DNA from: Candidatus Eiseniibacteriota bacterium
Lineage (GTDB): Bacteria; Orphanbacterota; Orphanbacteria; Orphanbacterales; Orphanbacteraceae
Direction of reading: 5' to 3'
Assembly: GCA_029262235.1 (NCBI GenBank)
Contig: JAJCZU010000003.1
Coordinates: 310,001-374,000, forward strand
Length of the DNA stretch: 64,000 nt
Positions 12,684 to 51,129 of the stretch are shown piece by piece. Position 1 is the stretch's first letter. Each line of letters starts with the position of its first letter. Under the pieces are notes generated by a model. The model searched no databases. It was not told the DNA's origin and saw only the letters and a program-made list of their open reading frames with translations. The position numbers and the translations under genes are program-made.

Positions 12684-12712
12684 CTGCCGGCGGCCGGGCA
12701 CCATATGCCGAA

Positions 12713-12735
12713 GGCCGTCCCATTACAGGACGGCC
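12713..12735 (-). terminator. hairpin between the PDZ and thioesterase genes
   Basis: GGCCGTCC (12713-12720) pairs perfectly with GGACGGCC (12728-12735) around a 7-base loop, 41 nt after the PDZ gene stop. No U-tract follows on the - strand, so intrinsic termination is uncertain; it may only stabilise the mRNA 3' end. Confidence 0.4.
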
Positions 12736-12775
12736 CCCGGTCTCGAAACACGAAGGAAGGATTCGTGTCAGAGTC

Positions 12776-14911: not shown

Positions 14912-14922
14912 AAGGAGATCCG

Positions 14923-15903
14923 ATGTCGAAAACGATATGGGTCGTGGCCCAGCGCGGCGAATCGGGGATCTCCCGCACGACGAAAGAAATACTCGGGAAG
15001 GCGAAAGAACTCGCGGGGGGCGGCACGGTTGCCGGCGTCTACTGCGGCGCATCGAAAGACAGCGTGGCGGAAGGATTGCAGGCGGCCGGCGCCTCGCAGG
15101 TCGTCCTGATGGTCGATCCGAAGCTCGAAACGTACCTGGCCGAAACGTATACCTCCGCGATCGGGGCGCTCGCACGCGACCGCAAGCCGGATGTCATTCT
15201 GATCCCGGGTACCCTGAACGGCAAGGAGCTCGCGGCCTCGCTTGCGGCCTCGCTCGACGGCGGCGCAGTCCAGGACTGCACGCACCTCGACTGGGACGGC
15301 GACGTGCTCGTCGGAACGCGCGCGTTCTTCGGCGGCAATCTGACGGCCACGGTCGAGAACCGCTCGTCCGGGCCGAAGATTTTCTCCGTGAAGCCGAAGG
15401 CGTTTCCGGTGCCGGCGGACAGCGCGGGTGCGGGCGGCGAAGTGGAAGAGGTGGCCCCGCAGCTTCCTGCGGCGCTGCGCACGACGGTCGTCGAGTTTCT
15501 CGCGGATGAAGGCAAAACCGTGAACCTGATCGACGCGAACGTGATCGTCTCGGGCGGGCGCGGCCTCGGCGCGCCGGAAGGATTCGAGATCGTGAACGAA
15601 CTCGCCGCGGTTCTCGGCGGCGCAGTAGGTGCGTCGCGCGCGGTCGTCGATGCAGGCTGGATCCCGTACGCGCATCAGGTCGGGCAGACGGGAAAAACAG
15701 TAAAGCCGAAGCTCTACATCGCATGCGGCATTTCCGGCGCGATTCAGCATCTCGCCGGCATGCGCACCTCGGACAATATCGTCGCGATCAACAAAGACGA
15801 GAACGCGCCCATCTTCAAAGTGGCGCACTACGGACTTGTGGGTGACGTGTTCGCGATCGTTCCTGAGCTGACGAAGAAATTCAAAGAAGCGCTTCAGGGA
15901 TAA
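14923..15903 (+). CDS. etfA: electron transfer flavoprotein subunit alpha
   Basis: A 326-residue EtfA preceded by AAGGAG. The C-terminal FAD domain is clear: VSGGRGLGAPEGFEIVNELA, GAVGASRAVVDAGWIPYAHQVGQTGKTVKP, LYIACGISGAIQHLAGMRTS and the closing VAHYGLVGDVFAIVPELT. The N-terminal half has the usual Rossmann-like fold with ILIPGTLNGKELAASLAASL. It forms the heterodimer with EtfB and holds FAD. The 3' end overlaps the convergent sulfatase-fold gene by 10 nt. Confidence 0.95.
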   Translation: MSKTIWVVAQRGESGISRTTKEILGKAKELAGGGTVAGVYCGASKDSVAEGLQAAGASQVVLMVDPKLETYLAETYTSAIGALARDRKPDVILIPGTLNGKELAASLAASLDGGAVQDCTHLDWDGDVLVGTRAFFGGNLTATVENRSSGPKIFSVKPKAFPVPADSAGAGGEVEEVAPQLPAALRTTVVEFLADEGKTVNLIDANVIVSGGRGLGAPEGFEIVNELAAVLGGAVGASRAVVDAGWIPYAHQVGQTGKTVKPKLYIACGISGAIQHLAGMRTSDNIVAINKDENAPIFKVAHYGLVGDVFAIVPELTKKFKEALQG

Positions 15904-18429: not shown

Positions 18430-19773
18430 TTACGAAGAGATGAGCTGAGGGTCGCCCGGCCGGGTGTCCTCGGTTTCCTGTCTGTCGCGCGGGAGCGCGA
18501 CCGTGAACTGCGATCCCTTGCCGACTTCCGAAGCGACCTGGATCGATCCATCCTGACCTTCGACGATCTGCTTGGCGAGCGACAGCCCGATGCCGCTGCC
18601 GCCGTGCGTTCGCGTCCCGGAACCGTCGATCTGGCGGAAGCTGTCGAAGATCGCCCCGATCTTGTCTTCGGCGATGCCGATCCCCGAGTCTTCCACGGAG
18701 AACGTCACGCGGTCCTCGGCGCAACCGGACGTGAGCCTCACGACGCCGGCGTTGTCCGTGAACTTGATCGCGTTGTCGAGCAGGTTCAGGAGCACGCGCC
18801 GCGTCTTCATCGGATCGAACCACGACTCTTCCATTTTGGGCTCGAGCGCCATCTCGAGACGGATCTCCTTCTCTTCGATTTCGATCTGCATCGTTTCCAC
18901 GACTTCCAGAATGAGATCGTTCAGATTCCCCTTCTGCTTTTCGAACTGCAGATGCTTCTGGCTGATCTCCGAGAGGTCGAGGATCTGGTCGATGAGGTTC
19001 GAGAGCTTCTGGCTCTGGCGCATGATGTTGTTCGAGAAGTCCTGCCGCATGTCTTCGTCGACTTCGCTGTAGCTCAGGCATTGCGCGAAGCCGAGAATGC
19101 ACGTGAGCGGCGTTCTGAGCTCATGCCCTACGTTCGACAGAAACTCGTTCTTGAGCGTGTCGAGTTCCTGGAGGCGCTGGTTCGAGTCCGCGAGCGAGGT
19201 GTTCGCGTGTTTCAGGCCTTCGTAGAGCTGCACGTTGTGAATCACGATCCCCGCGAGATCGAGAATCGAAAGCAGCATCTCTTCGTCGAACGACTGAATC
19301 TCTTTCGCATCCATGCGCGTGCCGAGAAGGATGATGCCGCGCAGTTCGCCCTGTGCGCGAATGCCGGCGGCCTGCGTGATCTTCTGCCCTGTGAGTTTTT
19401 CGACGAGCTCCGTTTCGCGCGCGGGCAGTCCGTCGCCGCGCACTTCGGTGATGCCGCGTGCCGCTTTGATCCGGCGCGCGAATACGCCGGACGGACGCAG
19501 GAACGGCTCGTCTTCGGGAAAGAGGTCTTTCGGAATGCCGCGCGAGTACAGGCGAAACCGGTCCTCACCCGCTTGACACGTCAATAGAATTGCCCGGGAG
19601 ACAGAGAGCAGTCCCATTACGGTCAGCAGTACGAGGCCGTCCAGACGGCGCGCTTCCTGAACGGAGACGAGCGACCGGCTCAGCTCGAGAAGCGTCTGTA
19701 GTCCGAGCACGCGCTTGTGCATCGAGTCCATGTCGGACTTGTCCCAGCGCTTGCTTTCATGAACTTCGGGCAT
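18430..19773 (-). CDS. soluble sensor histidine kinase (GAF-HisKA-HATPase)
   Basis: A 447-residue protein without membrane helices. Residues 20-185 form a GAF-like sensor domain. A coiled linker (LADSNQRLQELDTLKNE) leads to the H box FLSNVGHELRTPLT (phospho-acceptor His217). The ATPase domain has the N box NLLDNAIKF (330-338), G1 DSGIGI (362-367), and G2 HGGSGIGLSLAKQIV (390-404). There is no receiver domain and no response regulator nearby. GAGGA lies 7 nt before the ATG at 19773. It is the last gene of the long leftward array, 20 nt after the STAS gene, so its partner is probably among the upstream regulators or encoded elsewhere. Confidence 0.92.
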   Translation of the reverse strand: MPEVHESKRWDKSDMDSMHKRVLGLQTLLELSRSLVSVQEARRLDGLVLLTVMGLLSVSRAILLTCQAGEDRFRLYSRGIPKDLFPEDEPFLRPSGVFARRIKAARGITEVRGDGLPARETELVEKLTGQKITQAAGIRAQGELRGIILLGTRMDAKEIQSFDEEMLLSILDLAGIVIHNVQLYEGLKHANTSLADSNQRLQELDTLKNEFLSNVGHELRTPLTCILGFAQCLSYSEVDEDMRQDFSNNIMRQSQKLSNLIDQILDLSEISQKHLQFEKQKGNLNDLILEVVETMQIEIEEKEIRLEMALEPKMEESWFDPMKTRRVLLNLLDNAIKFTDNAGVVRLTSGCAEDRVTFSVEDSGIGIAEDKIGAIFDSFRQIDGSGTRTHGGSGIGLSLAKQIVEGQDGSIQVASEVGKGSQFTVALPRDRQETEDTRPGDPQLISS

Positions 19774-19793
19774 GCAGGTTTCCTCGCGTGTTC

Positions 19794-20171
19794 TTACGCG
19801 TTACCCGAGAGAAGAATCTCGCGGGCCGACTCCTGGTCGTTTCGAATCTGCAGGAACTCGAGCACGTTCAGCACGTCGAAGATGCGCTGAATCGCTTCGG
19901 GAACGCTCAGGAAAACGACGCCGCCGCCTTCCGAATTCAGTTCTTCCACGAGCGACAGAAAGATGCCGATCCCGGCCGAACCGATGAACGTGACTTCTTC
20001 GAGATCCACCATGAACCGGATCGATCCCGTCGACCGACTCTTCTCGATCTCGGCGAGAACGACCGGAAGGCCCTCGGCATCGAAACGGCCCTCCAGTTTC
20101 AGAAGGCTGATCGGAGGATTCTCCTGGATCGTGTCCGACCGGATCTGCAGGCTTGCTGTACTCTGCGTCAT
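19794..20171 (-). CDS. STAS-domain anti-sigma-factor antagonist
   Basis: A 125-residue SpoIIAA/RsbV-like protein. The STAS core includes ISLLKLEGRFDAEGLPVVLAEIE and MVDLEEVTFIGSAGIGIFLSLVEEL; Ser65 in GSAGIG sits at the phosphorylation position of SpoIIAA. In partner switching the unphosphorylated form binds the RsbW-type kinase and releases its target, and a PP2C phosphatase restores it. Both partners are the next genes upstream (20168-20737 and 20782-22386). The ATG overlaps the RsbW-like stop by 4 nt. Confidence 0.9.
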   Translation of the reverse strand: MTQSTASLQIRSDTIQENPPISLLKLEGRFDAEGLPVVLAEIEKSRSTGSIRFMVDLEEVTFIGSAGIGIFLSLVEELNSEGGGVVFLSVPEAIQRIFDVLNVLEFLQIRNDQESAREILLSGNA

Positions 20172-20737
20172 GCTATGTCTCCCTTTTGCAGTGCCAGTAC
20201 GCGGGAGCGCGCGTGCGCACGGTTCCCTATGAGTTTCACGAGATAAAGCTGATTCTGGCCCGCGACCCGGCGATAGCGGATCTGGTCCATCGATTTACGA
20301 ATGATCTGTAATCCGAAGCCGCGACCCCGGCGTCTCACGTGCGGATCCGCCATGTCGGGTTCGGGAATGCTTTCCATGTCGAAAGCCCGTCCCTGGTCCA
20401 GGAACAGGAGCTGGGCGCGCTCGGGCAGCATCTTCATGCGGACGCCGATGCGTGCGTTCGGATCGAAGCCGTAGGCATGTTCGATGATATTGAGGCCGAT
20501 TTCGTAGGCGGCGATTTCGATGCTCTGCAGCTCCGATTCGCGCAGTCCGTGGCACTCGCCGATCATGTTCAGAAACGCGCAGAGAGGACCGATCGACTCG
20601 ATCCGCGCCGGGATCTCGATCTCGTAGCAGGCGCCCGTGCGGTGGTCCGCCGACTCGCCTTCGTACGTACTTTCCTGTCTGAACGTCACGGAGCCCACCT
20701 GATCCTCCTCGAGGGCGTCGAATTCACGATGTCGCAT
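20168..20737 (-). CDS. RsbW/SpoIIAB-like ATP-binding anti-sigma/serine kinase
   Basis: A 189-residue protein from the ATG at 20737 (GGAAAG upstream). The GHKL ATPase fold is visible: EIAAYEIGLNIIEHAYG (N box, Glu79/Asn83), FLDQGRAFD (G1), and RRRGRGFGLQII (G2, 136-146). Such proteins phosphorylate STAS antagonists and sequester a sigma factor or other client. The first 35 residues are polar and not part of the ATPase fold. No sigma-factor gene is in the window, so the client is unknown and may not be a sigma factor. It lies 44 nt after the phosphatase gene and overlaps the STAS gene. Confidence 0.9.
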   Translation of the reverse strand: MRHREFDALEEDQVGSVTFRQESTYEGESADHRTGACYEIEIPARIESIGPLCAFLNMIGECHGLRESELQSIEIAAYEIGLNIIEHAYGFDPNARIGVRMKMLPERAQLLFLDQGRAFDMESIPEPDMADPHVRRRGRGFGLQIIRKSMDQIRYRRVAGQNQLYLVKLIGNRAHARSRVLALQKGDIA

Positions 20738-20781
20738 CGCTTTCCCTTCGTTCCGATCATCGGTACTCAATCCGGGCTCCT

Positions 20782-22386
20782 TTATGCCATAACCCGGATG
20801 GTGTTCCGGCTCTCTACCGACGGCTCTTTGCGCTTGATGCCGAGGAGCGTGATGTCGTCGAACTGCGCGGTTCCTTCCGCGAACTCGAAGACACCTTCGA
20901 CAACCGAGTCGACCAGGTCCCGCGTGGAACGGCCGCATTCCTGCGCCACGATCTGCACGAGGCTGTCGAGCCCGAATTCCTCGAGGTTCCGGTTGACCGC
21001 TTCGTTGACGCCGTCGGTGTACTGGACGATGCCGTCGCCCGCGCCGAGTACGATCGTCTGATCCTTGATCCGTTCGTCGAACCGGGGACCCGTGAAGAGG
21101 CCGAGCGGTACGCCTGTGGTCTTCATGAGGCTCTGCAGTCCCGATTCGCGCCGGAAATGAATCAGCGGGTTGTGTCCGGCTCCCGCGAAAGCGAGCCGGC
21201 CGGACGGGAGGTGCAGAATGCCGTAGAACATCGTGATGAACATGCCGCGCCGCATGTTGGGTTGGAGCATGCGGTTCAGTTCGATCAACGTTTCCGACGG
21301 CGTCTTGTAGCGCGGCCCGTGTGTGCGGAGCAGCGCGCTCGTCATCGCCATGACGACGAGGCCCGGGATCCCCTTGCCTGCGACGTCGGCGACCGTGATG
21401 CCGACGTGCTCGCCGTCGAGCGGAATCACGTCGTAGTAGTCGCCGCCGACCTGCTGCGCGGACTGATGAAATCCCGTGATGTCGTAGCCCGGGATCGCGA
21501 GGTTCGGCTTCGGCAGAAGACGGTCTTCGATCTCGGATGCGATCTCGAGTTCTTTCCCGAGGCGTTCCTTCTCGACGAGGTCATCCTGCGCGACCTTGAG
21601 CTGCGAGGTCATTTCGTTGAACTGCCACGCGAGGCGCCCGATTTCGGTGCGGCTCTTGAGCTGGATCTTGTGGTCGAGGTTGCCCTTCGCGATCTCTTCC
21701 GATCCCTTCGTAAGAAGATTGATCGGGCGCGTGATATTCGAAACGAGCAGGTATGTGACCAGCAGGCCGATCAGCAGCGAGATGCCCACGATCTTGATGG
21801 TCTGCTTCGACGCTTCGTCGATGACGGACTGGATGTGCGACATCTGCATGGCGAGATAGACGCGGCCCAGGTTCGTGCCGTCCGAGTAGCGAATGGGGAC
21901 GGAGACTTCGACAACGTTGCTGGTCGAACGGAACCGTTCGCCCTGGCGCGTGACGATCGTGACGTTGCGTTCGATCAGCGCCGGGTTGTCTTCGAAGACG
22001 TTCGCGACGTCGCGAATGTCGCCGGACCCGCGGATCTTGCCGTTCGGATCGACGACGTACGTATACGCGATTTCTTCGTTCTCGTTCACGATGTCTTTGA
22101 TGAGGGGCGTCAGGACGAATTCGGGAAACTCGTCGAGGAGCGGCGCCGCGGAAAGAGAAGCGAGGCTGCGGCACTGGGCGAGAATCCGCCGTTCGGCTTC
22201 GGCCTCGAGGAACTCCTGTTCCCGGTCGAGGATGATGCGCGCGGAAAAGAGCGTAACGCCCGTAAGCAGCAGCATCACCGAGAGGGCGAAGAGCAGCGTG
22301 AGGCTGAACGTCTTTTTCTCGCGCGGATTCTCGCGCGGGTTCCCGCGCGCTTCGTCGCGCACTTTTTCCGTCTTAGCGTTCGCCAC
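20782..22386 (-). CDS. membrane HAMP-SpoIIE (PP2C) serine phosphatase
   Basis: A 534-residue RsbU/RsbP-like protein. TM1 is at about 29-50, an extracytoplasmic sensor domain of about 145 residues follows (YVVDPNGKIRGSGDIRDVANVFE), then TM2 (about 197-217) and HAMP (NITRPINLLTKGSEEIAKGNLDHKI). A coiled linker (ELEIASEIEDRLLPK) leads to the PP2C domain with QVGGDYYDVIPLD, GITVADVAGKGIPGLVVMAMTSALLR and GAGDGIVQYTDGVNEA, which carry the metal-binding Asp/Gly residues. It probably senses an envelope signal and dephosphorylates the STAS protein. Its start overlaps the PorV-TPR gene by 14 nt, so surface-protein and regulatory genes are translationally linked. Confidence 0.93.
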   Translation of the reverse strand: MANAKTEKVRDEARGNPRENPREKKTFSLTLLFALSVMLLLTGVTLFSARIILDREQEFLEAEAERRILAQCRSLASLSAAPLLDEFPEFVLTPLIKDIVNENEEIAYTYVVDPNGKIRGSGDIRDVANVFEDNPALIERNVTIVTRQGERFRSTSNVVEVSVPIRYSDGTNLGRVYLAMQMSHIQSVIDEASKQTIKIVGISLLIGLLVTYLLVSNITRPINLLTKGSEEIAKGNLDHKIQLKSRTEIGRLAWQFNEMTSQLKVAQDDLVEKERLGKELEIASEIEDRLLPKPNLAIPGYDITGFHQSAQQVGGDYYDVIPLDGEHVGITVADVAGKGIPGLVVMAMTSALLRTHGPRYKTPSETLIELNRMLQPNMRRGMFITMFYGILHLPSGRLAFAGAGHNPLIHFRRESGLQSLMKTTGVPLGLFTGPRFDERIKDQTIVLGAGDGIVQYTDGVNEAVNRNLEEFGLDSLVQIVAQECGRSTRDLVDSVVEGVFEFAEGTAQFDDITLLGIKRKEPSVESRNTIRVMA

Positions 22387-24403
22387 CCGAGAGCTCCCCT
22401 GCTTTTCGCTTCGCTACGTTCGCCCGCCGGACGAACTCGAGCGCCTGACCGTCGCTGGGATCGATCTTCAGGATCTTCTCCCAGGTCTGAATCGCCTCGT
22501 CGAGCTGTCCGCTCGAGTAAAGCTCCATTCCCGTCGAGAGATACGCCTGCTTCAGATAAGACTCGACGTTCTCGAAGTCGGGAATGATCCCGTATACGAA
22601 TTCGAAGTACGGGATCGATTCGGAGTTTCTCCGCTGCCGGAATTCACCGAGACCCACTCCGTACATGCGTTCTGCTTCGGCGCGTTCTTCCGCGCTCACG
22701 TTGCGCCGCGGTTTCGGCCGCTCTGCCGCCTTGGCGCCTTCCGCGCCCGCGCGATTCGCCTGGGCGGCGTCGAGTCGCGCGATCTCGTTCCGGATGCGCG
22801 CGCTCGGCTGCAGGGCGTTGGCTTCGTTGAAGCGGGCCCGCGCCGACGCGATATCGCCCCGGCTGCGGAACCAGCGGCCCTCGTCGACCAGGTCGTCGAC
22901 CTTGACCGTGATCAGCGAGTCGCTCCGCGCCAGGTACCTCTGAGCATCGGCATTCTCCGGATCGATCTGGAGGACCTGGTTGAACGACCCGCGGGCCTTC
23001 GAGAACTGCGAGAGCGCGAGAAACTCGATGCCGCGTGTCAAACTTTCGTTCACTTCTTCGCTTCTGGCCGTCGAGGTGCGCAGCATGTCCGTGGCGCGCG
23101 CAAGGCGACGGATCGTCGGCGCGTGCTTTGAGTCAACCGCGATGGCGGCGTTGTAGGACGCGATCGCTTCGAGCAGGCTTCCCGATTCGAGCGAGCGATC
23201 CCCTTCGGCGATGTGGCGCTCGATCCGCGCCTGCTTGAGCGAAGCGTTCACTTCGGGGTTTTCAGGTTCCCAGAGAAGCGCGCGGTCGAACCACGACTCG
23301 GCTTCGAGATATCGCTTCTCGGCGAGATGCTGCTTGCCGCGTTCCAGGTTGTCCTCGAACTGCGCGCGCGCGTTCCGTTCGAGCTCTTCCTGCGTGCGGA
23401 TTGCGAGGCGTTCTTCTTCGCGTGACGAACGATCGGCGCGCAGATTCGTGAGCGACGAGCCGAACGACATCGTGAGTTCGAGGCGGTGCGAGGTGCCCAG
23501 TTCCTGCGATCCGAAGGCGTAGTCGAGCTGGCCGCCGGCCAGCTGGAATCCGATGCCCGTGGCCCATTCGTCCGGCCCGGCGCCCCCGCGGAACGCAAGC
23601 CCCGACGGCGTCATCACTTCAGCCCCGAACTTCGAACGGCCGCCCGACTGCTTGCCCTGTTCGAACGAGGCAAGGAGCAGGACGCGGTCGAGAAACCCGC
23701 CCATCGGGATCGAGTAGCCGACGCCGCTCCGCATGAGCGTGGGGAGTCGTTCTTCTTCCGTTCGCAGCGTCAGGCGCGGCTCGAGAGCGTTCCGGATCAT
23801 GACGCCGAACGCGAGATTCCGCGTCGACCAGAGCGAGCGGCTCGACTGGCTCGCCTGAAACAGGAACCCGACGTCCGCGCCGACTGCCGTGGCGGATTCG
23901 CCGTCGAGCGAATGTGTCTCCATTTTAATGTTGGCGCCGAAACGCGCCCGTCCGAAGGCCGGAAGTGCGTAGCCGATGATCCATTCGTTCTGTGCATTGT
24001 CGAACGAACCGAGCGCGGCGCCGCCGGCGTCGTATTTCGCAATATCCGACACGCCGTATCGCATATTGCCAAAGGCCACCGTGCCCAGATCGAGGAAGGG
24101 ATGCACGTATCCGACGAACGAATAACGATTTCCCTCAACGAAGGGCGATGTGTAGAAAAGCGAGAATTGCTTCGACTGCACGTTCGCGAGACCGGCCGGA
24201 TTCCATGTCATGGCGGTGGGGCCTTCGGCGCTCGCGACATACGCTCCGCCGAGTGAGAGGGCGCGTGCCCCCACACCGAACGCGAACGGCGACTCGGTTC
24301 CCCCGCTCTGCGACGCCTCGGCGTGCAGGGGGAGTGCGAGTGCGAGTGCGAGAGCCGCAACTCGCGCGTTTCTAATTGAGTACGGCGATCTTATGAATCG
24401 CAT
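22373..24403 (-). CDS. PorV/UPF0164-like outer-membrane barrel with C-terminal TPR domain
   Basis: A 676-residue protein with a signal peptide (ALALALALPLHAEA). Residues about 37-320 match the PorV/PorQ/UPF0164 barrel type: FAFGVGARALSLGGAYVASAEGPTAMTWNPAGLA, FVGYVHPFLDLGTVAFGNMRYG, closing with beta-hairpins typical of FadL-like barrels. Residues about 335-670 are TPR-like: RGKQHLAEKRYLEAESWFDRALLWEPENPEVNASL, SLLEAIASYNAAIAVDSKHA, FSKARGSFNQVLQIDPENADA. PorV is the outer-membrane shuttle of type IX secretion. Fused TPRs would lie in the periplasm and could bind clients (inference). It overlaps giant 2 by 32 nt and the phosphatase by 14 nt. Confidence 0.85.
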   Translation of the reverse strand: MRFIRSPYSIRNARVAALALALALPLHAEASQSGGTESPFAFGVGARALSLGGAYVASAEGPTAMTWNPAGLANVQSKQFSLFYTSPFVEGNRYSFVGYVHPFLDLGTVAFGNMRYGVSDIAKYDAGGAALGSFDNAQNEWIIGYALPAFGRARFGANIKMETHSLDGESATAVGADVGFLFQASQSSRSLWSTRNLAFGVMIRNALEPRLTLRTEEERLPTLMRSGVGYSIPMGGFLDRVLLLASFEQGKQSGGRSKFGAEVMTPSGLAFRGGAGPDEWATGIGFQLAGGQLDYAFGSQELGTSHRLELTMSFGSSLTNLRADRSSREEERLAIRTQEELERNARAQFEDNLERGKQHLAEKRYLEAESWFDRALLWEPENPEVNASLKQARIERHIAEGDRSLESGSLLEAIASYNAAIAVDSKHAPTIRRLARATDMLRTSTARSEEVNESLTRGIEFLALSQFSKARGSFNQVLQIDPENADAQRYLARSDSLITVKVDDLVDEGRWFRSRGDIASARARFNEANALQPSARIRNEIARLDAAQANRAGAEGAKAAERPKPRRNVSAEERAEAERMYGVGLGEFRQRRNSESIPYFEFVYGIIPDFENVESYLKQAYLSTGMELYSSGQLDEAIQTWEKILKIDPSDGQALEFVRRANVAKRKAGELSGGER

Positions 24404-27400
24404 GGTCTCGCTTTCCGTCGTTGTAAGTCACTACGATTGACGCAAGATAAACGCCGCTGATGACGTTCTTCCCGTCGCCGTTTTCGCCCTGCCAGAAAAC
24501 TTCCACGAGGCCCGGCTCGCTGATCGTGCGCGTGATCGTTTTCACGGGAACGCCGAGCCCGGTAAAGATATCAATCGAAACGCGGCCTCCCCCGTGGCAA
24601 TAGAAAGCAATGGTCGTGCCGCCCGAGACCGCGAAGGGGTTCGGGTAGTTCCGCAGGCTCGTTTCAAACTGTTTGTCGACGAAGTACGTCAATCCGGACG
24701 GATTCGTGCCCGGATCGTCGAACGCGCGGGCCAGCAGAGCCACGTTTTCTTCCAGCACGACGGCATCTTCGACAATGCGGACGCGATACGACGCGACGTT
24801 CGGATTGTCGACCACGGTCCAGTCGACCGAGAGTGTCAGCGTGTCGCCCGGGGTGATCGGTTCGCCGTCGCTTGCGAAGTGCGCGACAAGGCGGTCGCTC
24901 GCGAGCGTCATGACGACTTCGTTTCCGTTCGAAGTACGCGCGGTGGCGTTCGCGATGATGTCAGCCGGCGCGATCACGCTGCCGTTCTCGTCTTCGAGCG
25001 CGATCGTGAAGCTTGCGAGGTGGAGGGTAACGTCACCCTGCTCGCCCGATGCGAGAATACCGACTGTCGCGCCGGACTCGACCGCGCCGCCCCCGACCGA
25101 CGTGGCAGGCAGCGAAGCGTCGAAGTACAGATCTACGCGGCTGGTTACTTCGCGAACGGCAAGGCCGGACGTTTTGATTGTGTCGACCGTAGTAACGAAG
25201 GAAACGGGAGTTCCGGCATTCGCGTCGGTCAGTTCGATCGCGGCGACAGGAATCGTGAATCGATAGTCCGCGCGGGGGGCGTCGGCTTTGAGATCGATCG
25301 ATAGAGCGATGTTGCGCGTTGAGCCCGGGCGAACAGGCAGCGGAACGTCGAGCGGGACCCGGAGCGCATTTCCCGAGAGTCCCGCGGCAGACGCGGCTCC
25401 GATCCGCGCGCCATCCTGGGTCAGGATGACCAGTTCTGTAAGATCCGCCATGGCGGTCGCGGCACCGTTCGTATCTGTAAGAGCGATCGTAATCGCATGC
25501 AGTGTCGCTGACGCGCCGTTTTCTTTCGGCACAGGTTCGAACACGACGTCGACGATCGGCACGGCGCGCGCGCCCTGAAACACGGGGTCGATCGGAACGC
25601 GATTCCGGGACCGTCCGGCGATTTCCGCAATGCGTTCCTGAATCGTCGTCGTGAATGGTTCATGCGCCGTAACGAGGAGGGGAAGCGAGTCCGACGCGGC
25701 GCTGCGAATCAGCACGAACGCGCTGTCGATACTACTGGCGCCGAGCACGGCGTCCGTTCGGACGTCGCCGCGGAGCGTGACGCGGATCGGGTTGTTCGCC
25801 GGGATGCCGAGCGCCGGAATCAGAGGCAGATAGAGCGTGTCGCCCTGCATCGACCAGCCCGATTCCGCAAAGTGGCGTACGTCACCTGCCCACACCGAGA
25901 GCGAGGCGTACGGGAATGTCGTGTCGGTCACGACGAGACAGAGGTTGTCTGCCAGAATGCTCGCTGTCTCTTCGGGGATGCCGGTGCTCGAAAGCGTGAG
26001 TTCGCCGATTGCGACATCGTTGCTTCCCCGGTTCACGGCTTCGGGCAACCGGTTCGCGGCCGCGACTTCGAGTCCGGACGGGGCGTTGAACAGCCCGACG
26101 ACTTCCGACAGATACGGAAGGTTACCCGACAGCGGGACTGATTCGTGCGAGTTCGCGTCATGAGCCTGCACGGCGTGGTCGCTTTCGAATCCGATCCGGA
26201 ACCGGGCGACGCTTGCGGAGTCGCTGATGTCGAACAGGAGGACCAGCGACGTGCCGCCTCCCGGCAGCACGCGGACCGTGTCCGTGAACGTGATCGTCAA
26301 TGTCGAGTCCGTGTTCTTCGCCAGCTCGCTTGTGCCGATCGTCGCACCCGTTCGCTGTACGGTCGCGCGACTGATTACGAGTGAGGGATCCAGTGTGACG
26401 CCGTCTTCGTCCGTCACCCGGAACTGAAGATCGTGAATTGCGATGTCGCTGCGCCCGGTGCCCGCGTCGTCCGCGTGTGAGCAGTCGAGCACGAACGCGC
26501 GGAGGTCCCGGAGCCCGCGCGTCACGGATGTCGGGATCGCGCTCACGACGCTGACGACCGTTCCGGTCGCGGGGTCCTGCACGAGAACCGGCGGAGACGT
26601 GCTCGCAAGCGATGTTTCGCTCCCGTTGCTGCCGTCGGCGGTCGCGTTCCCCGAGAACGTGACCGTGCCTGCAGAATCCGCGCGGACCGTCCAGACGAAG
26701 AGAGCCGTGTCGCCTGGCGCGAGTTCGTCGATGGTCTCCGTGTTCGGCACGGTGACCGACGCCGGACCGGTGATCGTGAACAGGTTCGGTTCGACCTCGA
26801 TCAGCGTGTCCATTTCGGTCGATATATTGATCGCGAACAGCGTGACGTCGAACGTCTGCCCCGCGCTGACGCGCCGCGGCGGCGTCATGAAGCGCGTGAA
26901 GAGCGGCGCGTCGGTAATCGTAAATTCGTCCGGGGCGTCGAACGGGGCGTCGATCGGACCGTCGTTGTCCGAGTCCATTTCGATACCGTCGAGAGCCAGC
27001 CGCACGCGTACGGTTCCCCCTTCGGGAGCACCGAGGGCGATCGCTCCGTGGATCTCGATCGGGACGCCGCCTGCCGGCACCGGAACATCGAAGCCGTCCC
27101 GGACCCACGCCAGTCCGTCCCAGACCAGATCGCCGACGTTCGCGCCGTTCGCGACGAGACGCAGCGAGGAGAAGGCCGTGTAGTCCGCCGATCCGGCGTT
27201 CACGATCTCGATCGCGTTCATGCGGTCCGCACCGCAGCCGTTCGAAGGGATCTGCGCCCGCAGCAGGAGCTGCTCCGCGCCGCCCGGTGCGATCGGGCCG
27301 TCGCCGAGAACGTCCGCGGCGATCTGCATCGTCGAAAATCCGTCGACGACGACCGGTGCCAGCGTTGCCGCGGGGAAGATGCCGGTCACGAATCGCGAGA

Positions 27401-34244: not shown

Positions 34245-34332
34245 ACTTCGCCTTCACTCCTCTTGCTGAGTATCGGCAAAACGCCTGTAATGCTTACGAT
34301 TAGAGCGAATCAGGCAGCATGGCTTACAGCTT

Positions 34333-34350
34333 GAGCGGACAGGGCCGCTC
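34333..34350. other. small hairpin between the two giant genes
   Basis: GAGCGG (34333-34338) and CCGCTC (34345-34350) form a 6-bp stem with a 6-base loop inside the 122-bp gap. No U-tract follows on the - strand, so it should not block read-through; I see no convincing promoter in this gap. Confidence 0.35.
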
Positions 34351-34366
34351 CGTTTGGAAGGCGCGG

Positions 34367-37300
34367 CTAGTTCAGAACGGCGATCTTGTGCGTTTTTACG
34401 TCAACGGAGCCGCTTTCGTACCGGATCTCGAATGACGCCAGATAGACGCCGCTCAGGATCCGGTTGCCGTCGCCGTTCACGCCCGCCCAGGGGATTTCGA
34501 CGAAGCCGGGGGCGCTGATCGGGGCTTCGACGGTCCAGACGGGAGTGCCGAGTCCGGTGAAGACGCGGATGATCGCCGTGCCTGCCTCGCGGGCATAGAA
34601 CGCGAGAGTCGTCCCGTCTTCGCCCGCGGAGAACGGGTTCGGGTAGTTTCGTACACTCGACTCGAAGTCGCGGTTCGCAAAATGCGTCCAGGCGGATTCG
34701 CCCGCGTTCTGTGTCGTGGAACGAACGACGGGTCCGACTTCGACGATCGTGATTTCCTCGACAGGGATGCGCAGCTTGAAACGGCTGAGCGAAGTCGCCG
34801 CCGCCAGTTCGACAGAAAGTGCGAACTCCTGTTCGATGCCCGGCTTCAGAACAACGGGTTCGTCGAACGTGAAGAAGATACCGTTCTGCGTAAACGTGCC
34901 GACGTACTCGACTTCACCAGTATGGAATAGCGCGGAAGCGAGGGCCTGCGCGGGATCGATCGTACCCGCTTCTCCCATCACTTCCAGCAGGATCGAGGTC
35001 AGGTGCACATCGCTGACGCGTTCGTCGCCGCTCGCCTTGATGCGAATGGTACCGGCCGGGTCGATCGAAGCGCCGGGAACGGTGGTGGCCGGCAGCGCAA
35101 AGGCGATCGTCACGTCGACGGCGTCACTCTGGCGCCTGACCGCAAGCGGTCCCGTGAAGAACGTGCTTGGGGCGTCACCGTCGAGACGCACGGTGACGGC
35201 GCCGCGCTGGTTTTTCTCGACGACGGTGATACCGGTGCTCGCTACTGACACGACGTAGTCGCCGGCGGCCGCGTCGGCGCGAATATCGAACTCCACGAGA
35301 AGCGTGACGGACTCGCCGCTCGTCATGCGCACGAGATCCGCGGGTGCCGGCGCGAGTGCAAGCGTGTTCAAGCCGGGCTCGATCGGCGCCGCCGACGCGA
35401 TTGTGACGCCGTTTCTGATCAGGCGCGCGCGGTCCAGCAGCGTTTCGAGCGCCACGGCATCTCCGCCCGCGTCACGCACCGAGAATACGATTCCATTCAC
35501 TTCGATGTCGGAGAGCGAGTTCCCCGCGCCATGGTCGAACCGCAGTTCGAAGGCCGGGACTTTGCGCGTACCGGTAATGACGAAAGAAGTGTCCACGCGG
35601 TCCGTGCCCGTAACCGTGATCTCGTCCGTCCGTATCCTGATGTCGGTCTGAAGAGGCTCCTCGAGCACGAGCGTCACGACCGGACTCTCCGCCGTTCCGG
35701 AGGAGGGAGGCCCGTCCGGTTCGGGATCTACGAAAACGGAATCGACGAGTCCCACCTGAAACGGTCCGAGCGCCGCGTCGGCGCGCACGGCACCGCGGAT
35801 CTTCAAGTTGAGCGTGGCCTCGGATGTCACGCGAATCGGAGGACTGAGCGGGAGTATCAGCACATGTTCACTTCCGAGCGAATCTTCGGCCTGGATCCAG
35901 TGGCTCCCGTTGAAGTACGGAGGGAAGCCCTCCTGCTCGACGACAAGGCGGGAGAACGGAAAGTCGGCCGCGCCGGGAAGCATGCGGATCTCGTTCACGA
36001 GAAGATCCGCGGTCTGCGTTTCGTTCTCCGCGATCGCGAGCGTGAAGTCCATCAGTACTACGTTCTGGTCGCCGCGGTTGATCTGTTCCGGGAGCCCGCT
36101 CAGCACCGTGACGTCGAGGCCGGCAGGGGGGTCGACGACCGGTATCGTGTCCGATACGACGGCACTGTCGAGCAGATAGCCGATCGCGCTCCCGCCGTTC
36201 AGGTCGAAGAGCGCGAGCGCGCCCGCGGTTTCCCAGCGGATCGTGAAAGCCTGCACGCTCGACTCTTCGCGGAACGAGAATTCGAACGCGAGATCCGCGT
36301 CGTTCCCCGAACGCAGTACGATCGTCGAGTCGAGCGCCACGGTGATCGCCCCGGTGCCCATATCGTTCGAAAGGAGCCTTGCCACGCGCCTGCGGTTCGC
36401 TTCCAGGTCGACGACGTCGAGCTGCGAGAGAAACGCCGATGGGTCGATCACGTTGCCGAGTTCGTCATCGAGACGGAACGTGACCTCTTCGAGGCGCACG
36501 GGCGCCGTATTCGGATTGCCGTTTTCGTGCGTGACGTTGATCTTCACGAGCTCCTGCCCGAACGAACCGCGCACGACTTCGCTCGGAATGTCCATGTCGA
36601 CGTCGAGCGTGATCGAGTCGGCGGGCACCTGCACCGTGACGATGCCGGATGAAACGATTCCCGTACTCACGATTTCCTCGGACCCGACCGGCTTCCCTCC
36701 GAACGATGTCTGGACCTGCAGCGTGCCGCCGTCGTGCGCCTGGACGGTCCACGTCACGGGGAGCTTTTCGCCGGGGGCGAGTTTGCGGTTGATGTCGATC
36801 TCGGGAGAAACGACTTCAGTGAGCGTGCCGCCGACGCCCGTCAGACCGGGAGTGAAGATGGAGTGCATCGTGTCGGCCACGCTCGGGTTCGAAATCTCGA
36901 ATGTGATGTCGTACGGTTGCCCCGTCGAAACGATCGTGACGCCGGAATCGATGAACTGCGCGAAAATAGGGGCCGTCGTAATCGTGAAAACCGCGGGCGA
37001 TGCGACCGGCTGATTCCCAGGACCGAGGCGCCCGGAAGCCAGAGATACACCGTTTACGGGAATCTGAAGCGCCACGGTTTCATCTCCCGAAGCCCCCGCG
37101 TCGATATTGATCCATACATAAAGATCCGCGCCGCCGTGGGGAACCGGAATCGCAAGATCGTTCCGGAACCAGCTGCGATCGCCTGTCCCGAACAGCGCGA
37201 TGGCGCCCGCGGGCGAAGCCGTTGTCGTGATCGAAAGGCTCGCGATGTCGGCCACCCGGACGGCGGTTCCCAGGTTGTCGATCTGGAGCGCCCTCAGCGT

Positions 37301-40300
37301 GTCTGTCAGGCAGCCGTTCGACGGCACCCGGATCTGGAAAGCGAGTCGACCGGATTCGCCCGGGATCATCGCGCCGTCTTCCAGATTCGGAATCATGAAG
37401 TTCTGGGAGCGAAGCGCCCGCACGGTGACGAACGTCGATCGCTGAATCGGGAATGTGCCGATTGCCACGCGTTCCTGCGGGAAGCCGAACGAGCCTCCGG
37501 AATCGATGACGACCGCGATCGAATCACCCTGCGATGCGCACGACTCGCCCGCATCGACCATGATCGCGATCCGGCGTTCCCCCGACGGCGGAATCGTAAG
37601 ACCCTGCAGCGCGACGGCCGCACTCCGGTTCGTGAAGCTCGCGCTTCCGAACACGAGCCCGGTCGTGTCGTCGACCACATGGACCTGGCTCAGCACGCTG
37701 TCGGCGCCCGATCGGCCGTGCGATCCGTTGCGAAGCAGGAGCGAGGACACGGTCGCTTCGGTCGTGTCCAGATTCGTGAGCGTGAACGCGTACAGCTTCA
37801 CATCGGTGACGCCCGGGTAAACCGTGCTGACGGCTGACGCTGTGAAGTCGCCGATCGAAATCCCCTGACTCCCCCCGATGATCTGGAGTGTCGCGGTGTA
37901 CGCGGGTCCGTCGATCGGCCCGTCGTTCGTCGATTTGTACTGGAGCCCGCCCGGTGGAATCGAAAGCTGCAGAACGCCGCCCGAAGGCGCCTCTACGACA
38001 CTCGCGCTCGCGAAGATGCGGGCGCCTCCCGGCGGCACGTAGAGTCCGCCCGTTCCCCAGAACCAGTTGTTGCCTGCCGGGACGGCCGTGCCGAGATAGA
38101 TGTCGTCGCCTGTCCCGCGGTCGAACGCCCCGTTGCCGCCGTCACGCCACAGCTTGAGCCCCGCAAGGTCCGATGCGGTTGCCTCGCCCCGATTCTTGAG
38201 CGTGATCGAGTAGAGCGTATCGCTCTGAAACCCGTTCGAAGGCACGACGAACGAAAGGGCGAGAGAATCGACGGACCCTGCCGGCAGCTCCTCGGGGAGC
38301 GCGGGATCGAGCGTGATCTGGGCCGCGATCGATCCGTCTACGATCGGGTTTCCCGGCGAGTCCAGCGGGAACGTCGCGAGTATGGTGGACGACGGCGTGA
38401 ACGTGACTTCCGATTCCGAGCTCACGACCGCGTCGAGCACGAAGCCGGAGGGCGCGTTCAAGAGCGAAACGTCGACCGCCAGCAGAAAGTGAATCGAGTC
38501 CGAAGGAGCCAGGGCGAAGTTCAGGCCCGACAGCACGAGTCTCCCGTTCGCGAACACACTGTTTGTCAGCAGGGCGTCGCCCGCGCTCAGGTCGCTCGAA
38601 CGATCCACGTCGCGGTATACGGCGACGCTTTCGAATACGCCGTCACGCTGCGCGATGCTGCCGATCTGCGAAGCGTCGTTCGCGAACGCGATCGATGTCA
38701 GCGTTCTGGTTTGCGCATAAAGATTCGTGAAACGGACAGAGAGAAGCGCGATATCGGTGGATCCCGGATACACGGTTCCTGCTTCGACCGGGTTCACGGC
38801 CGCCTGCACGTGCGGCGGGAGCACCGCGAGGTCGTTGTTCAGCGTCGTGACGCTCTTCGAGAAGGCGGCGCCGTTCCCGTCGAGCCCCGAAAGCACGAGC
38901 TTTGCCTGGTACTGGCCCGGCAGGAACGTGGCCGGCAGGCTGGCCGGATCGAACAGAAGCGAAACGACGCTGCTGTCGGCCGCGAGCGCCATGGCCCCCG
39001 TGATCGGCGCCGTGAGGCTGTCGGTTCCGTCCGTGAGCACGAGGCAGGACGTCGAGTCGAGCGCCAGATCAGCGCCGCCTATGTTCTGCACGCCGAGGAA
39101 GAAGCCGCTGCTCCCGCCCGGGATCGCGGTCTTCGGAAACAGAGTGCGCAGCAGGTCGACGAGGCGCGGCGGTTCGGTAACTGTCCAGTGGCCGGTTGCC
39201 TGCGATGCGTCGGTCTGAATCGGTGACCCGTTCGTTACGAACGCGCCTGACGCGAAGCCCCGGATCGTGACGGGGAAGTCGACCGTCGCCAGCGAGTCGA
39301 CCGTGACGTCGACCCAGACCGTGTCCGACGCTCCGGAGGAGAGTGTGTCGAACGGCGCTTGGATGGAGTCGAGAACGTATTCGGCGTTCAGCGGCTGTCC
39401 GAGCGGCCCTTCGAACGTGAGGCTGAACGAGAACGACGCGATATCGTTCCCTGAGTCGTTCTTGAGCGCGATGCCGACCGGAAGTCCCGACTCTCCCTGC
39501 GTCACGCGTTCGCGACTCTCGATCACCGCTTCGATGACGAGTCCTTCGTTGTCGAGCACTTCGACAGAAGCCGTATCACTCACGCTTCCGACCGTCACGA
39601 TCGCGAGCCCGTTGCCCGGAGAAGTGGCCGTCAGGAGCCCGCTCCCGCTGATCGTGCCGAGGCCGCCGGTGATTGTCCACGCAGGAGCTTCTGTCGCGGC
39701 ATTTCCGTCCGCGTCAAAGGCTTGATACGTAAACTGTACGGCCCCTCCGATTCCGAGCGACGTCGAAGCGGGCGAAATGGTGACGCTCGTGGCCGGCCCC
39801 GGGGTCACGGTAATCGAGTCTGTAAGTCCTACGATCGTGGCGCCGAGAGCCACTTCCCCTTCGGGCGTGATCACGTTCGGCTTCTTGTAGGAAACGCGGA
39901 TCACGTCTTTGCCCGCGGTCGTCGCATCGAAAAGTCCCGTGCCCGTATCGATCGTTCCGATCAGCGTGCCGCCGCCCCACGTATACGTGCCCGGGTCGGC
40001 GACCTCATTGCCGTGCGCGTCGCGCGCCGTCGCCTGGAACTGAATCTGCTGCAGTGATGTGATCGTGGCGCTCATCGGATCGATGTCGATCGCCGCGATC
40101 CCGCCCGGTGCAATGCGCACGGAACTCGTGTCGCTCAGGCCGTCGAACGATCCCACGACGAACGTGCTCCCGGTTGCAGCCGGCGTAAGGAGACCACTCG
40201 TGTCGATCGCCGCGAGGGCGGGGTTCAGGACGGACCACGTGGTCTTCGGGCGATACCAGTTGAAGTCGCCGTCGATCGCGATGGACACGAAGTCCACCGT

Positions 40301-41737
40301 CTGGTCCATGGTGATCGCGGTGTCCGGCGGCGCAATCGCGAAGCCGATCGGTTTTCCGGGAATGATGTGCGTGTAGAGACTCCCCGCGACCGCGCCGTCG
40401 GTGGCGATAACATAGCCTTCGCTCACACGGACCGGGTCGAAGTGACCGCTGATCGGATCCAGTACGGCCACCAGCGATGGGGCGGACCAGAGCGCGCTCA
40501 CGGGAACGTCGTTCGATGCGTTGTCGTAGCCGCTTGCCGTGAAGGTGATGGTCGTGTCTGCCGAGATCGAGTCGAGCGCCGGATCGATCCCGATCGTCGC
40601 AAGAACTCCCGGAACCGTAACGCGCATGTGGTTGCCGTTGCTCAAACCGTCCACGTCACCCGGCGACGGCGTCATCGGTCCGAACAGCGTATTCGTATCG
40701 TCGATCGAGGGCGGAACGGAAAACGTTTCGGCGGTATCCACGCCCGGTGCTTCCATCGTGAACGAGATCTGCAGAACACCGGAGGAATCGATCGGCGGCG
40801 CGAGGTCGAGAACGAGCGAGTTCGCCGAACCGCTGACAACCGGGTTCAAGTCGACGCCTTCGAACGTTGTCCGGACGTGCGTTACGTTCTGGAGGCCGGC
40901 CGGCAGCGGAAGGGTCACGCGGTCGAAGCCCGTGTCGTATCCGCGCCCTCGAATCGTAACCCGCACCTGCAGGTCGAACGCGACCGGGCCGCCCCGCGGC
41001 AGCAGATGCGGCGAAATCTCGCCGATCGCGGACGTTACGGGGGGGAGTACGTCGTCGGGCGGGTAGGCCGTGATCACGAAATAGGGTTCGCCGGCGGTCG
41101 GATCCGTCTGGTCCGACGATTCGAACGTGGTCGGCTTGTGTACGACAATGGGGCCGCTGAGCCCGAAGATGTCCGGAACGATGATGATGATGCCCGGCTC
41201 GCTCGTGGCGCGGATCATCATCCCCTTGTTCGTCGAGGGAGAGGCGACCCAGCCCGCGACGAGGGACGTGAGATCGACCACGGCCATCGTGTCACCCTTT
41301 TCGACGGTGAATGAAGCGATGGTCGTCGTGTCGTAATCGCCGCCGTCCTTGTTCCAGGTCTTGGCGGAGTCCGCCATCGTCCAGGTTGCGTAGTCCGCGT
41401 CCCAGTCGCCCGTCATCCTGTGGATCGCGTAGCGCGTGTTCTCGAGAACGCTCCCTTTGTATTCCCGGATCGGAATGTGCAGGACCGCGGAGCCGATCGT
41501 GCCGCCGCCGGGAATGAGCGGAGTCGCGTAATGAATGAGCGCCCGGTTGCGCTGCGAGTTCCCGCCCGACTTCAGCGAGTCGGCGTCGGCGTAGTTCGTG
41601 TTCGGGAACTTCTCGGAGATGTACGTGTCGTTCGTATTCGCACTCGACAGCGGAGATGTAAAAGTATACGGATCCGACCACGCGGGTGCAGCGCTCAGAA
41701 ACAGACCCATCAATATAAGAACGACTCGTGTCAGCAA
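34367..41737 (-). CDS. giant secreted multi-domain surface protein 1 (DNRLRE, 4 BIG2 repeats, FlgD-like CTD)
   Basis: About 2,456 residues if started at the TTG at 41737, which has GAGGA 8 nt upstream and places the hydrophobic signal peptide (LLTRVVLILMGLFLSAAPAWS) at the N-terminus. An in-frame GTG at 41881 would add 48 charged residues and has no ribosome binding site. Order: one DNRLRE domain (TNDTYISEKFPNTNYADADS ... WTMADSAKTWNKDGGDYDTT), a cohesin-like module, four BIG2 repeats (DNA about 39550-40610), CARDB-like and other beta modules collinear with giant 2, and the C-terminal RNYPNPF ... LSGVYLAS ... HKIAVLN domain. Likely an exported surface fibre. First gene after the sigma-54-type site at 41992-42006. 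Confidence 0.88.
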   Translation of the reverse strand: MLTRVVLILMGLFLSAAPAWSDPYTFTSPLSSANTNDTYISEKFPNTNYADADSLKSGGNSQRNRALIHYATPLIPGGGTIGSAVLHIPIREYKGSVLENTRYAIHRMTGDWDADYATWTMADSAKTWNKDGGDYDTTTIASFTVEKGDTMAVVDLTSLVAGWVASPSTNKGMMIRATSEPGIIIIVPDIFGLSGPIVVHKPTTFESSDQTDPTAGEPYFVITAYPPDDVLPPVTSAIGEISPHLLPRGGPVAFDLQVRVTIRGRGYDTGFDRVTLPLPAGLQNVTHVRTTFEGVDLNPVVSGSANSLVLDLAPPIDSSGVLQISFTMEAPGVDTAETFSVPPSIDDTNTLFGPMTPSPGDVDGLSNGNHMRVTVPGVLATIGIDPALDSISADTTITFTASGYDNASNDVPVSALWSAPSLVAVLDPISGHFDPVRVSEGYVIATDGAVAGSLYTHIIPGKPIGFAIAPPDTAITMDQTVDFVSIAIDGDFNWYRPKTTWSVLNPALAAIDTSGLLTPAATGSTFVVGSFDGLSDTSSVRIAPGGIAAIDIDPMSATITSLQQIQFQATARDAHGNEVADPGTYTWGGGTLIGTIDTGTGLFDATTAGKDVIRVSYKKPNVITPEGEVALGATIVGLTDSITVTPGPATSVTISPASTSLGIGGAVQFTYQAFDADGNAATEAPAWTITGGLGTISGSGLLTATSPGNGLAIVTVGSVSDTASVEVLDNEGLVIEAVIESRERVTQGESGLPVGIALKNDSGNDIASFSFSLTFEGPLGQPLNAEYVLDSIQAPFDTLSSGASDTVWVDVTVDSLATVDFPVTIRGFASGAFVTNGSPIQTDASQATGHWTVTEPPRLVDLLRTLFPKTAIPGGSSGFFLGVQNIGGADLALDSTSCLVLTDGTDSLTAPITGAMALAADSSVVSLLFDPASLPATFLPGQYQAKLVLSGLDGNGAAFSKSVTTLNNDLAVLPPHVQAAVNPVEAGTVYPGSTDIALLSVRFTNLYAQTRTLTSIAFANDASQIGSIAQRDGVFESVAVYRDVDRSSDLSAGDALLTNSVFANGRLVLSGLNFALAPSDSIHFLLAVDVSLLNAPSGFVLDAVVSSESEVTFTPSSTILATFPLDSPGNPIVDGSIAAQITLDPALPEELPAGSVDSLALSFVVPSNGFQSDTLYSITLKNRGEATASDLAGLKLWRDGGNGAFDRGTGDDIYLGTAVPAGNNWFWGTGGLYVPPGGARIFASASVVEAPSGGVLQLSIPPGGLQYKSTNDGPIDGPAYTATLQIIGGSQGISIGDFTASAVSTVYPGVTDVKLYAFTLTNLDTTEATVSSLLLRNGSHGRSGADSVLSQVHVVDDTTGLVFGSASFTNRSAAVALQGLTIPPSGERRIAIMVDAGESCASQGDSIAVVIDSGGSFGFPQERVAIGTFPIQRSTFVTVRALRSQNFMIPNLEDGAMIPGESGRLAFQIRVPSNGCLTDTLRALQIDNLGTAVRVADIASLSITTTASPAGAIALFGTGDRSWFRNDLAIPVPHGGADLYVWINIDAGASGDETVALQIPVNGVSLASGRLGPGNQPVASPAVFTITTAPIFAQFIDSGVTIVSTGQPYDITFEISNPSVADTMHSIFTPGLTGVGGTLTEVVSPEIDINRKLAPGEKLPVTWTVQAHDGGTLQVQTSFGGKPVGSEEIVSTGIVSSGIVTVQVPADSITLDVDMDIPSEVVRGSFGQELVKINVTHENGNPNTAPVRLEEVTFRLDDELGNVIDPSAFLSQLDVVDLEANRRRVARLLSNDMGTGAITVALDSTIVLRSGNDADLAFEFSFREESSVQAFTIRWETAGALALFDLNGGSAIGYLLDSAVVSDTIPVVDPPAGLDVTVLSGLPEQINRGDQNVVLMDFTLAIAENETQTADLLVNEIRMLPGAADFPFSRLVVEQEGFPPYFNGSHWIQAEDSLGSEHVLILPLSPPIRVTSEATLNLKIRGAVRADAALGPFQVGLVDSVFVDPEPDGPPSSGTAESPVVTLVLEEPLQTDIRIRTDEITVTGTDRVDTSFVITGTRKVPAFELRFDHGAGNSLSDIEVNGIVFSVRDAGGDAVALETLLDRARLIRNGVTIASAAPIEPGLNTLALAPAPADLVRMTSGESVTLLVEFDIRADAAAGDYVVSVASTGITVVEKNQRGAVTVRLDGDAPSTFFTGPLAVRRQSDAVDVTIAFALPATTVPGASIDPAGTIRIKASGDERVSDVHLTSILLEVMGEAGTIDPAQALASALFHTGEVEYVGTFTQNGIFFTFDEPVVLKPGIEQEFALSVELAAATSLSRFKLRIPVEEITIVEVGPVVRSTTQNAGESAWTHFANRDFESSVRNYPNPFSAGEDGTTLAFYAREAGTAIIRVFTGLGTPVWTVEAPISAPGFVEIPWAGVNGDGNRILSGVYLASFEIRYESGSVDVKTHKIAVLN
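39550..40610 (-). repeat. 4 BIG2 Ig-like repeats in giant protein 1
   Basis: Openings ATIGIDPALDSISADTTITF, GFAIAPPDTAITMDQTVDF, AIDIDPMSATITSLQQIQF and SVTISPASTSLGIGGAVQF mark four consecutive units. The flanking modules are collinear with those around the 12-repeat tract of the paralogue. Confidence 0.75.
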
Positions 41738-41991
41738 AGCTGTTTTCCTCGACCGGGCTCGCCCCCCGGATCCGTTCGCCCGTTCCCTATCCTTCTGAAA
41801 TTCGACGAACCTGGGCAATTCCTTGATCCCTTCTTGGAATCTTCGTGTTCCCTTTTTGCCCACGATGCGCGGGACATGCACAGCGTCGGCAGCGGGTGTG
41901 CAGAAGCGCTCTCACAAAGTATTGCTGCGCAATGACTTGCGGAACGGCTTGCCACGACTGAATTTCAGTTCAGTTCTGAGGAAGAAAGATT

Positions 41992-42006
41992 GCAGGTGTC
42001 GTGCCG
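41992..42006 (-). promoter_or_regulatory. sigma-54-type -24/-12 promoter of the giant-protein array
   Basis: On the - strand the sequence CGGCACGACACCTGCA has GG at 42005-42004 and GC at 41993-41992 with ten bases between. It matches GGCACG-N5-TGCA of the RpoN consensus. Predicted start is near 41981, about 240 nt before the TTG at 41737. It lies only 8 nt beyond the stop codon of the sulfatase-fold gene. Confidence 0.6.
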
Positions 42007-51036: not shown

Positions 51037-51129
51037 AGGTTTCTCCACGAAATACATCGGTATGAGGGATTAAATTCAAAAGCAGGAGCGACTTATAGAA
51101 TACCAGACATTCGCCTGCGCCACAAGGCC

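Follow-up and report, generated by a model that had tools for sequence, protein, structure and literature searches.

Based on the open reading frames of the window, by which we mean the whole stretch of 64,000 nucleotides that was analyzed, seven genes stand in one row on the minus strand: two giant genes (giant 1 and giant 2), PorV-TPR, an sCache-HAMP-SpoIIE phosphatase, an RsbW-type kinase, a STAS antagonist, and a GAF histidine kinase. The first-pass annotation had described the same seven genes, and their places and order were confirmed. On re-check of the ORF coordinates, the overlaps (32, 14 and 4 nt) and gaps (122 and 20 nt) that it gave proved exact, and the gap in front of the RsbW-type gene is either 11 or 44 nt, as set by the choice of start codon (TTG at 20770 or ATG at 20737).

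Protein domains were called with Pfam and NCBIfam, and both giants have signal peptides as judged by eye. Giant 1 (34367..41881; 2504 aa, GTG start) is a predicted secreted surface protein with a CBM96/DNRLRE-like N-terminal domain, Ig-like domains, and a T9SS type A-like CTD (NYPNPF...KIAVLN). Its paralogue, giant 2 (24372..34244; 3290 aa), contains a DNRLRE domain, Ig-like repeats, and a T9SS-like CTD. PorV-TPR (22373..24403; 676 aa) combines a signal peptide and a PorV/FadL-type beta-barrel (about residues 78-314) with a C-terminal TPR solenoid (about 318-671), the latter part with a Pfam match to TPR. The predicted inner-membrane phosphatase (20782..22386; 534 aa) is built of a TM segment, an sCache-like periplasmic sensor, a second TM segment, HAMP, and a SpoIIE PP2C domain with all metal-binding Asp residues; its Pfam matches are SpoIIE (1.5e-39), HAMP (1.7e-11), and sCache_3_2 (9.3e-5, which is under the cut-off of that family). 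The row continues with the RsbW-type serine kinase (20168..20770; HATPase_c_2, 4.6e-20), the STAS antagonist (19794..20171; 125 aa; STAS, 4.8e-13) with the phospho-Ser motif FIGSAG, and a soluble histidine kinase (18430..19773; 447 aa) with GAF-like, HisKA and HATPase_c regions, which is the proposed client of the STAS protein.

Two sulfatase-family genes, likewise on the minus strand, flank the array upstream (42014..43762), outside the proposed switch, and downstream (15894..17786). A bactofilin gene on the plus strand (17948-18403) is convergent with the histidine kinase gene, the two stops being 26 nt apart. Elsewhere in the window, two long ORFs have no Pfam match (48712-51489, plus strand, 925 aa; 13898-15175, minus strand, 425 aa), and a scan of the window with Rfam returned no RNA family.

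Two promoter-like sites were considered, both on the minus strand. The sigma-54-type GG-N10-GC site reported ahead of the array is indeed present between the sulfatase stop and giant 1 (CGGCACGACACCTGCA, 42006-41991); it matches the consensus and is a putative promoter. A site of this type recurs right after the upstream sulfatase gene in the related genomes G003 and G004 (CGGCACGACTCCTGCA and CGGCACAGCTCCTGCA, respectively) and is absent from that position in a third sister genus, G002; RpoN is encoded in all seven genomes of the window phylum. Since no convincing sigma-54 sites were found 5' of the Zixibacterial giants described below, we rejected this promoter as a part of the wider conserved unit. 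The second candidate is a weak sigma-28-like sequence 5' of giant 2, TAAGCATT-N11-GCCGAT (34272..34296), with a similar sequence before the giant of G002. When one mismatch was allowed, the pattern occurred once in the window's own genome, with one unrelated match in G004, and because of this single occurrence no genome-wide sigma-28-like regulon could be defined.

The window comes from a small candidate phylum (Candidatus Eisenbacteria-like), and we compared seven genomes of that phylum, including the 4.47 Mb genome of the window itself (G000); the relatives are labelled Candidatus Eisenbacteria or Gemmatimonadetes. The core order of giant, PorV-TPR, SpoIIE, RsbW, STAS and histidine kinase is kept in four further genera (G002, G003, G004, G005), and one more array is partial, its contig ending within the phosphatase gene (G001). 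The remaining genome (G006) lacks the orthologues of both PorV-TPR and the phosphatase, a joint absence to be taken with caution because the assembly is 91% complete. In G002-G004, as in the window, the array has a sulfatase-family gene at each end, and G005 keeps that on the downstream side.

In addition to their arrays, G003 and G004 encode a second pair of giant and PorV-TPR without switch genes (loci L048 and L043-L044). In the tree built from the last 950 residues, giant 1 groups with the array giants of these two genomes, while giant 2 falls among the stand-alone ones, for which a separate PorV-TPR is encoded. Giant 2 is the window counterpart of the switch-less giant, and in the window organism both giant paralogues stand in one row with a single PorV-TPR. 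The switch-less pairs show that a giant and its carrier can exist without the switch, and thus that the carrier can work without it. Generic SpoIIE genes without PorV also occur in the window's own genome. The other SpoIIE loci of this genome were rejected as a source of the client, as none has a full PorV-TPR match; one is a compact trio of STAS, RsbW and SpoIIE without a PorV neighbour (L116, 5636-8866), and in another (L114) a FliA/WhiG-type sigma gene (12697-13569) and a large SpoIIE gene (15240-17783) are about 1.7 kb apart. A similar closeness of sigma and SpoIIE genes is seen by coordinates in G002-G005.

To the first-pass proposal that FCB genomes be searched for conserved adjacency of PorV-TPR with HAMP-SpoIIE, RsbW and STAS genes, the answer was strongly positive and extends over two phyla. 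We scanned a PorV-TPR alignment against the genomes of 84,980 species and obtained three loci outside the window group, with 23-28% identity, these two groups being the only ones returned. Two of the three loci are named Zixibacteria, and the third was assigned to the same phylum via a later search set. All three (L131-L133) have the identical six-gene order, the giant of L133 being cut at the contig end, and their RsbW-type protein has an additional N-terminal STAS domain. Across 133 Zixibacterial genomes, the phosphatase gene follows 31 of the 32 strong PorV-TPR genes, which we call type I, at a distance of -7 to +20 nt. Another 45 weaker PorV-TPR matches in these genomes mostly represent another form (type II), and a phosphatase match lies just downstream of 37 of them.

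Beyond L131-L133, we read seven type I and thirteen type II Zixibacterial arrays in full, and in all of them the kinase and STAS follow. A histidine kinase comes after STAS in six of the seven further type I arrays (14/15 type I arrays overall), the exception being L178. The type II order is PorV-TPR, a single protein with kinase, sensor, HAMP and SpoIIE parts, STAS, and then a GGDEF diguanylate cyclase. The cyclase is found in 13/13 type II arrays; in L181, undetermined bases interrupt its frame. In eleven of the arrays the next gene encodes a polysaccharide export protein, and genes for Wzz- or ParA-like proteins are close by. In 12/13 type II arrays PorV-TPR is preceded by a giant that has the common C-terminal part; L186 has a short frame there, and none was detected in L192. 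In six type II arrays (L181, L182, L187, L190, L192, L193), the genes for the fused kinase-phosphatase and for STAS are separated by one for a ParA/MinD-type ATPase. The type II kinase-phosphatase chain of L181 (9824-12661) terminates in transposase-like helix-turn-helix domains. Both forms of the array sometimes occur in one genome, for example in G008 and G096. As judged from the sequences, the type II fusion of kinase and phosphatase supports their being parts of one switch.

The orthologous regulators do not routinely occur without a surface-protein neighbour, as PorV-TPR lies directly upstream of 31 of the 34 type I phosphatase genes; among the three exceptions, one has PorV-TPR on another contig and one is 512 nt from a contig start. 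The trees of PorV-TPR and SpoIIE contain the same three clades (window phylum, Zixibacterial type I, and type II), each with 98-100% bootstrap. The pairwise distances of the two proteins are correlated as well (rho 0.57-0.78 for the full set of arrays, 0.79-0.88 when type I is taken separately). This agreement would fit one old pairing of PorV-TPR and SpoIIE that diverged together. The array is not a product of chance, since its gene order is conserved across two phyla, and the surface-protein, PorV-TPR and partner-switch genes form one conserved unit, as had been proposed from the window alone.

The secretion half of the array is probably of the type IX kind. The barrel of the window protein is PorV/PorQ-like by family match, and its PorV part matches NF033709 at 2e-23, with 83.5 bits against a cut-off of 90. 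In its AlphaFold2 model (pLDDT 80) a beta-barrel is followed by a TPR solenoid, which is likely periplasmic, and the best fold match in the PDB is the PorV of the SprA translocon (6h3i_F, E 2.6e-9). SprA was detected over the cut-off in 15/15 genomes tested and in 0/14 controls, and a C25 peptidase (sortase-type) is encoded in all 15 genomes tested. The 28 giant C-termini share a CTD of FlgD-Ig/T9SS type A character, and at E <= 0.01 they match the PorU model (28/28; its CTD end, for the member shown), FlgD_ig (27/28), and TIGR04183 (16/28); for the window giant CTD shown, the matches are under the curated cut-offs, including that of Pfam, and the TIGR04183 match is weak. Given SprA and C25, the PorV fold match, and the character of the CTD, export of the giants by the T9SS is likely. 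Elsewhere in G000 a separate C25 gene adjoins a PorV-like gene (C2:677585 and C2:679918), which is probably the ordinary PorU/PorV pair of this organism, and the PorV-TPR of the window is therefore a dedicated paralogue. The array resembles the known PorV shuttle with its C-terminal-domain cargo (PDB 6h3i) in a probable PorV-type barrel, a putative CTD-like cargo end, and SprA and C25 in the genome, but its barrel is fused to a TPR solenoid, and the gene for it stands with those of the giant cargo and the switch and not next to PorU.

The other half is predicted to be a complete partner-switching module, as the first-pass annotation had also read it, with nearly all checked catalytic residues of phosphatase, kinase and STAS intact in 28 arrays. 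The metal-binding Asp of the phosphatase and the phospho-Ser of STAS are invariant (28/28), and so are the checked ATP-binding residues in the N, G1 and G2 boxes of the kinase, except for one G2 glycine (27/28); the corresponding biochemical activities are predicted. By fold, the phosphatase matches Rv1364c RsbU/RsbW and SiaA-PP2C (TM 0.83) in the PDB. The phosphatase, kinase and antagonist resemble RsbU, RsbW and RsbV of Bacillus in having intact motifs. In contrast to that system, no sigma factor gene was seen in the 28 arrays examined, and the residue before the STAS Ser is G or S where RsbV has Asp.

Other partner switches, with a non-sigma output, can also be compared. The SypE/SypA output of Vibrio fischeri is connected to surface polysaccharide; to our knowledge the system includes no PorV or giant protein genes, and its domain layout differs. 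Like the arrays, it includes a STAS protein and a Ser kinase (PMC10120452). In Pseudomonas, the phosphorylated antagonists of two partner switches, SiaC and HsbA, bind diguanylate cyclases (PMC7647112, PMC8457831, PMC5085249). The SiaABCD operon of P. aeruginosa likewise encodes a HAMP-PP2C membrane phosphatase, a kinase, a phosphorylated antagonist, and an output enzyme (PMC7647112, PMC8457831); the window phosphatase matches the SiaA model at 2.8e-11, under its cut-off, and type II arrays share with this operon a GGDEF cyclase in the output slot. However, the window kinase is of the HATPase_c_2 family and the antagonist is a STAS protein with Ser, as opposed to SiaB and to SiaC with Thr68, and the two window proteins gave matches to HATPase and STAS families and none to the SiaB or SiaC families. 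Moreover, the window output slot holds a histidine kinase, the cyclase being confined to Zixibacterial type II, and the arrays include giants and PorV-TPR. The HptB-HsbR-HsbA-HsbD pathway of the same species (PMC5085249) also has an anti-anti-sigma-type protein, phosphorylated at Ser56, that binds a diguanylate cyclase, and it combines kinase and phosphatase in a single chain, as in type II. It differs in that HsbR is a response regulator with both activities, whereas the arrays use a membrane sensor, the window has separate kinase and phosphatase genes, and the type II fusion is without a receiver domain; furthermore, the Hsb locus as described includes no surface protein or carrier.

For the window switch, the first-pass annotation had suggested a possibly novel client of the RsbW-like protein. 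The premise that no sigma factor is adjacent held in the arrays examined, but the likeliest client is the enzyme encoded next to STAS, whether GAF histidine kinase or diguanylate cyclase, which argues that the last gene of the window array belongs to the switch and is not an add-on. We take the neighbouring enzyme as the client because SiaC and HsbA bind diguanylate cyclases and because the slot after STAS is conserved for a GAF enzyme. The GAF-like region of the histidine kinase and the GAF region of the type II cyclase can be aligned as profiles (E 1.4e-6); since GAF domains are common, such a match would be insufficient by itself to establish a shared client site.

We therefore propose that the array is a surface-protein secretion and signalling operon with a partner switch whose STAS protein acts on the adjacent output enzyme, a model that we regard as a whole as reasonably probable. 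The giants, with their T9SS type A-like CTD, would leave through the SprA translocon, carried by the dedicated PorV-type barrel with its periplasmic TPR solenoid. The RsbW-type kinase would phosphorylate STAS at the Ser of the (G/S)SAG motif, and stimulation of the periplasmic sensor would cause the inner-membrane sCache-HAMP-SpoIIE phosphatase to strip this phosphate. Depending on its phosphorylation state, STAS would then either stay on the kinase or bind to the GAF region of the adjacent output enzyme; this enzyme is a histidine kinase in type I, including the window, and a diguanylate cyclase in type II. In this way the switch would set the surface and attachment programme that accompanies the giant. 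The weakest part of this model is the action of STAS on a histidine kinase, and the switch-less pairs of G003 and G004 and the missing histidine kinase of L178 count against the model.

A stronger claim, compatible with the proposed model, is that the switch reports export status, as the first-pass annotation had suggested, with the phosphatase sensor binding the solenoid of PorV-TPR or a giant that has yet to be exported. It is plausible that the sensor would detect the state of the carrier or of the giant, because their genes adjoin and the parts concerned are both on the periplasmic side: in 31/32 type I arrays the PorV-TPR gene overlaps or almost abuts the phosphatase gene, the two follow the same tree, and the TPR part is predicted to be periplasmic, where the sensor lies. 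The sensors of the window phylum also have an invariant segment, LLDEFPEFVL, but this segment is not kept in the Zixibacterial sensors, and sCache domains mostly bind small ligands. Taken together, we consider such secretion-coupled feedback rather doubtful. The same holds for its most direct form, in which PorV-TPR, through its solenoid or the giant cargo, would itself set the activity of the SpoIIE phosphatase, and giant export would be read as histidine-kinase or c-di-GMP signalling; this is on the unlikely side, and if true it would represent a new class of outer-membrane-to-cytoplasm signalling.

The RsbW-type protein could instead be an anti-sigma factor for a distant sigma factor, for example the FliA/WhiG-type protein at C6:374778 of G000, which could read the site before giant 2. 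A group 3-like sigma is present in the genome, and the sequence at 34296-34272 would suit such a factor, with a TAAA-like box and, at the spacing of sigma-28 sites, GCCGAT; the giant of G002 is preceded by a similar sequence. The exact site is, however, unique in the genome, the FliA/WhiG-type sigma has its own SpoIIE gene nearby, none of the 28 arrays was seen to include a sigma gene, and the conserved neighbour of STAS is an enzyme, all of which makes this reading unlikely. That slow rearrangement keeps neighbours together in the absence of a joint function, as the likewise retained sulfatase flanks within the window phylum might suggest, is highly improbable, given that the core is constant while the flanks differ between phyla, that Zixibacteria have two forms of it, which some genomes combine, and that it has overlapping genes and a kinase-phosphatase fusion.

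Each half of the array under the preferred model, in which STAS acts on the adjacent enzyme, is of a known kind; what appears new is their conserved union, the TPR-bearing carrier, and the swap of the output enzyme. Our literature search, with most subscription papers and all bioRxiv preprints outside its coverage, found no relevant paper that connects SpoIIE or partner switching to PorV or to type IX secretion, or that concerns Zixibacteria with type IX secretion. The partner switches known so far act on sigma factors and a few second-messenger enzymes, and in Bacteroidetes type IX secretion is under other kinds of control (PorX/PorY and SigP). The array, kept by uncultured bacteria of two phyla, suggests an undescribed way of tying surface-protein secretion to a cell-wide decision. 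With a giant type IX-like protein, its own carrier and a serine-phosphorylation switch in one unit, secretion at the outer membrane would be coupled to signalling by a kinase or by c-di-GMP as well as to exopolysaccharide, and action on histidine kinases is a candidate role for STAS proteins that these arrays suggest.
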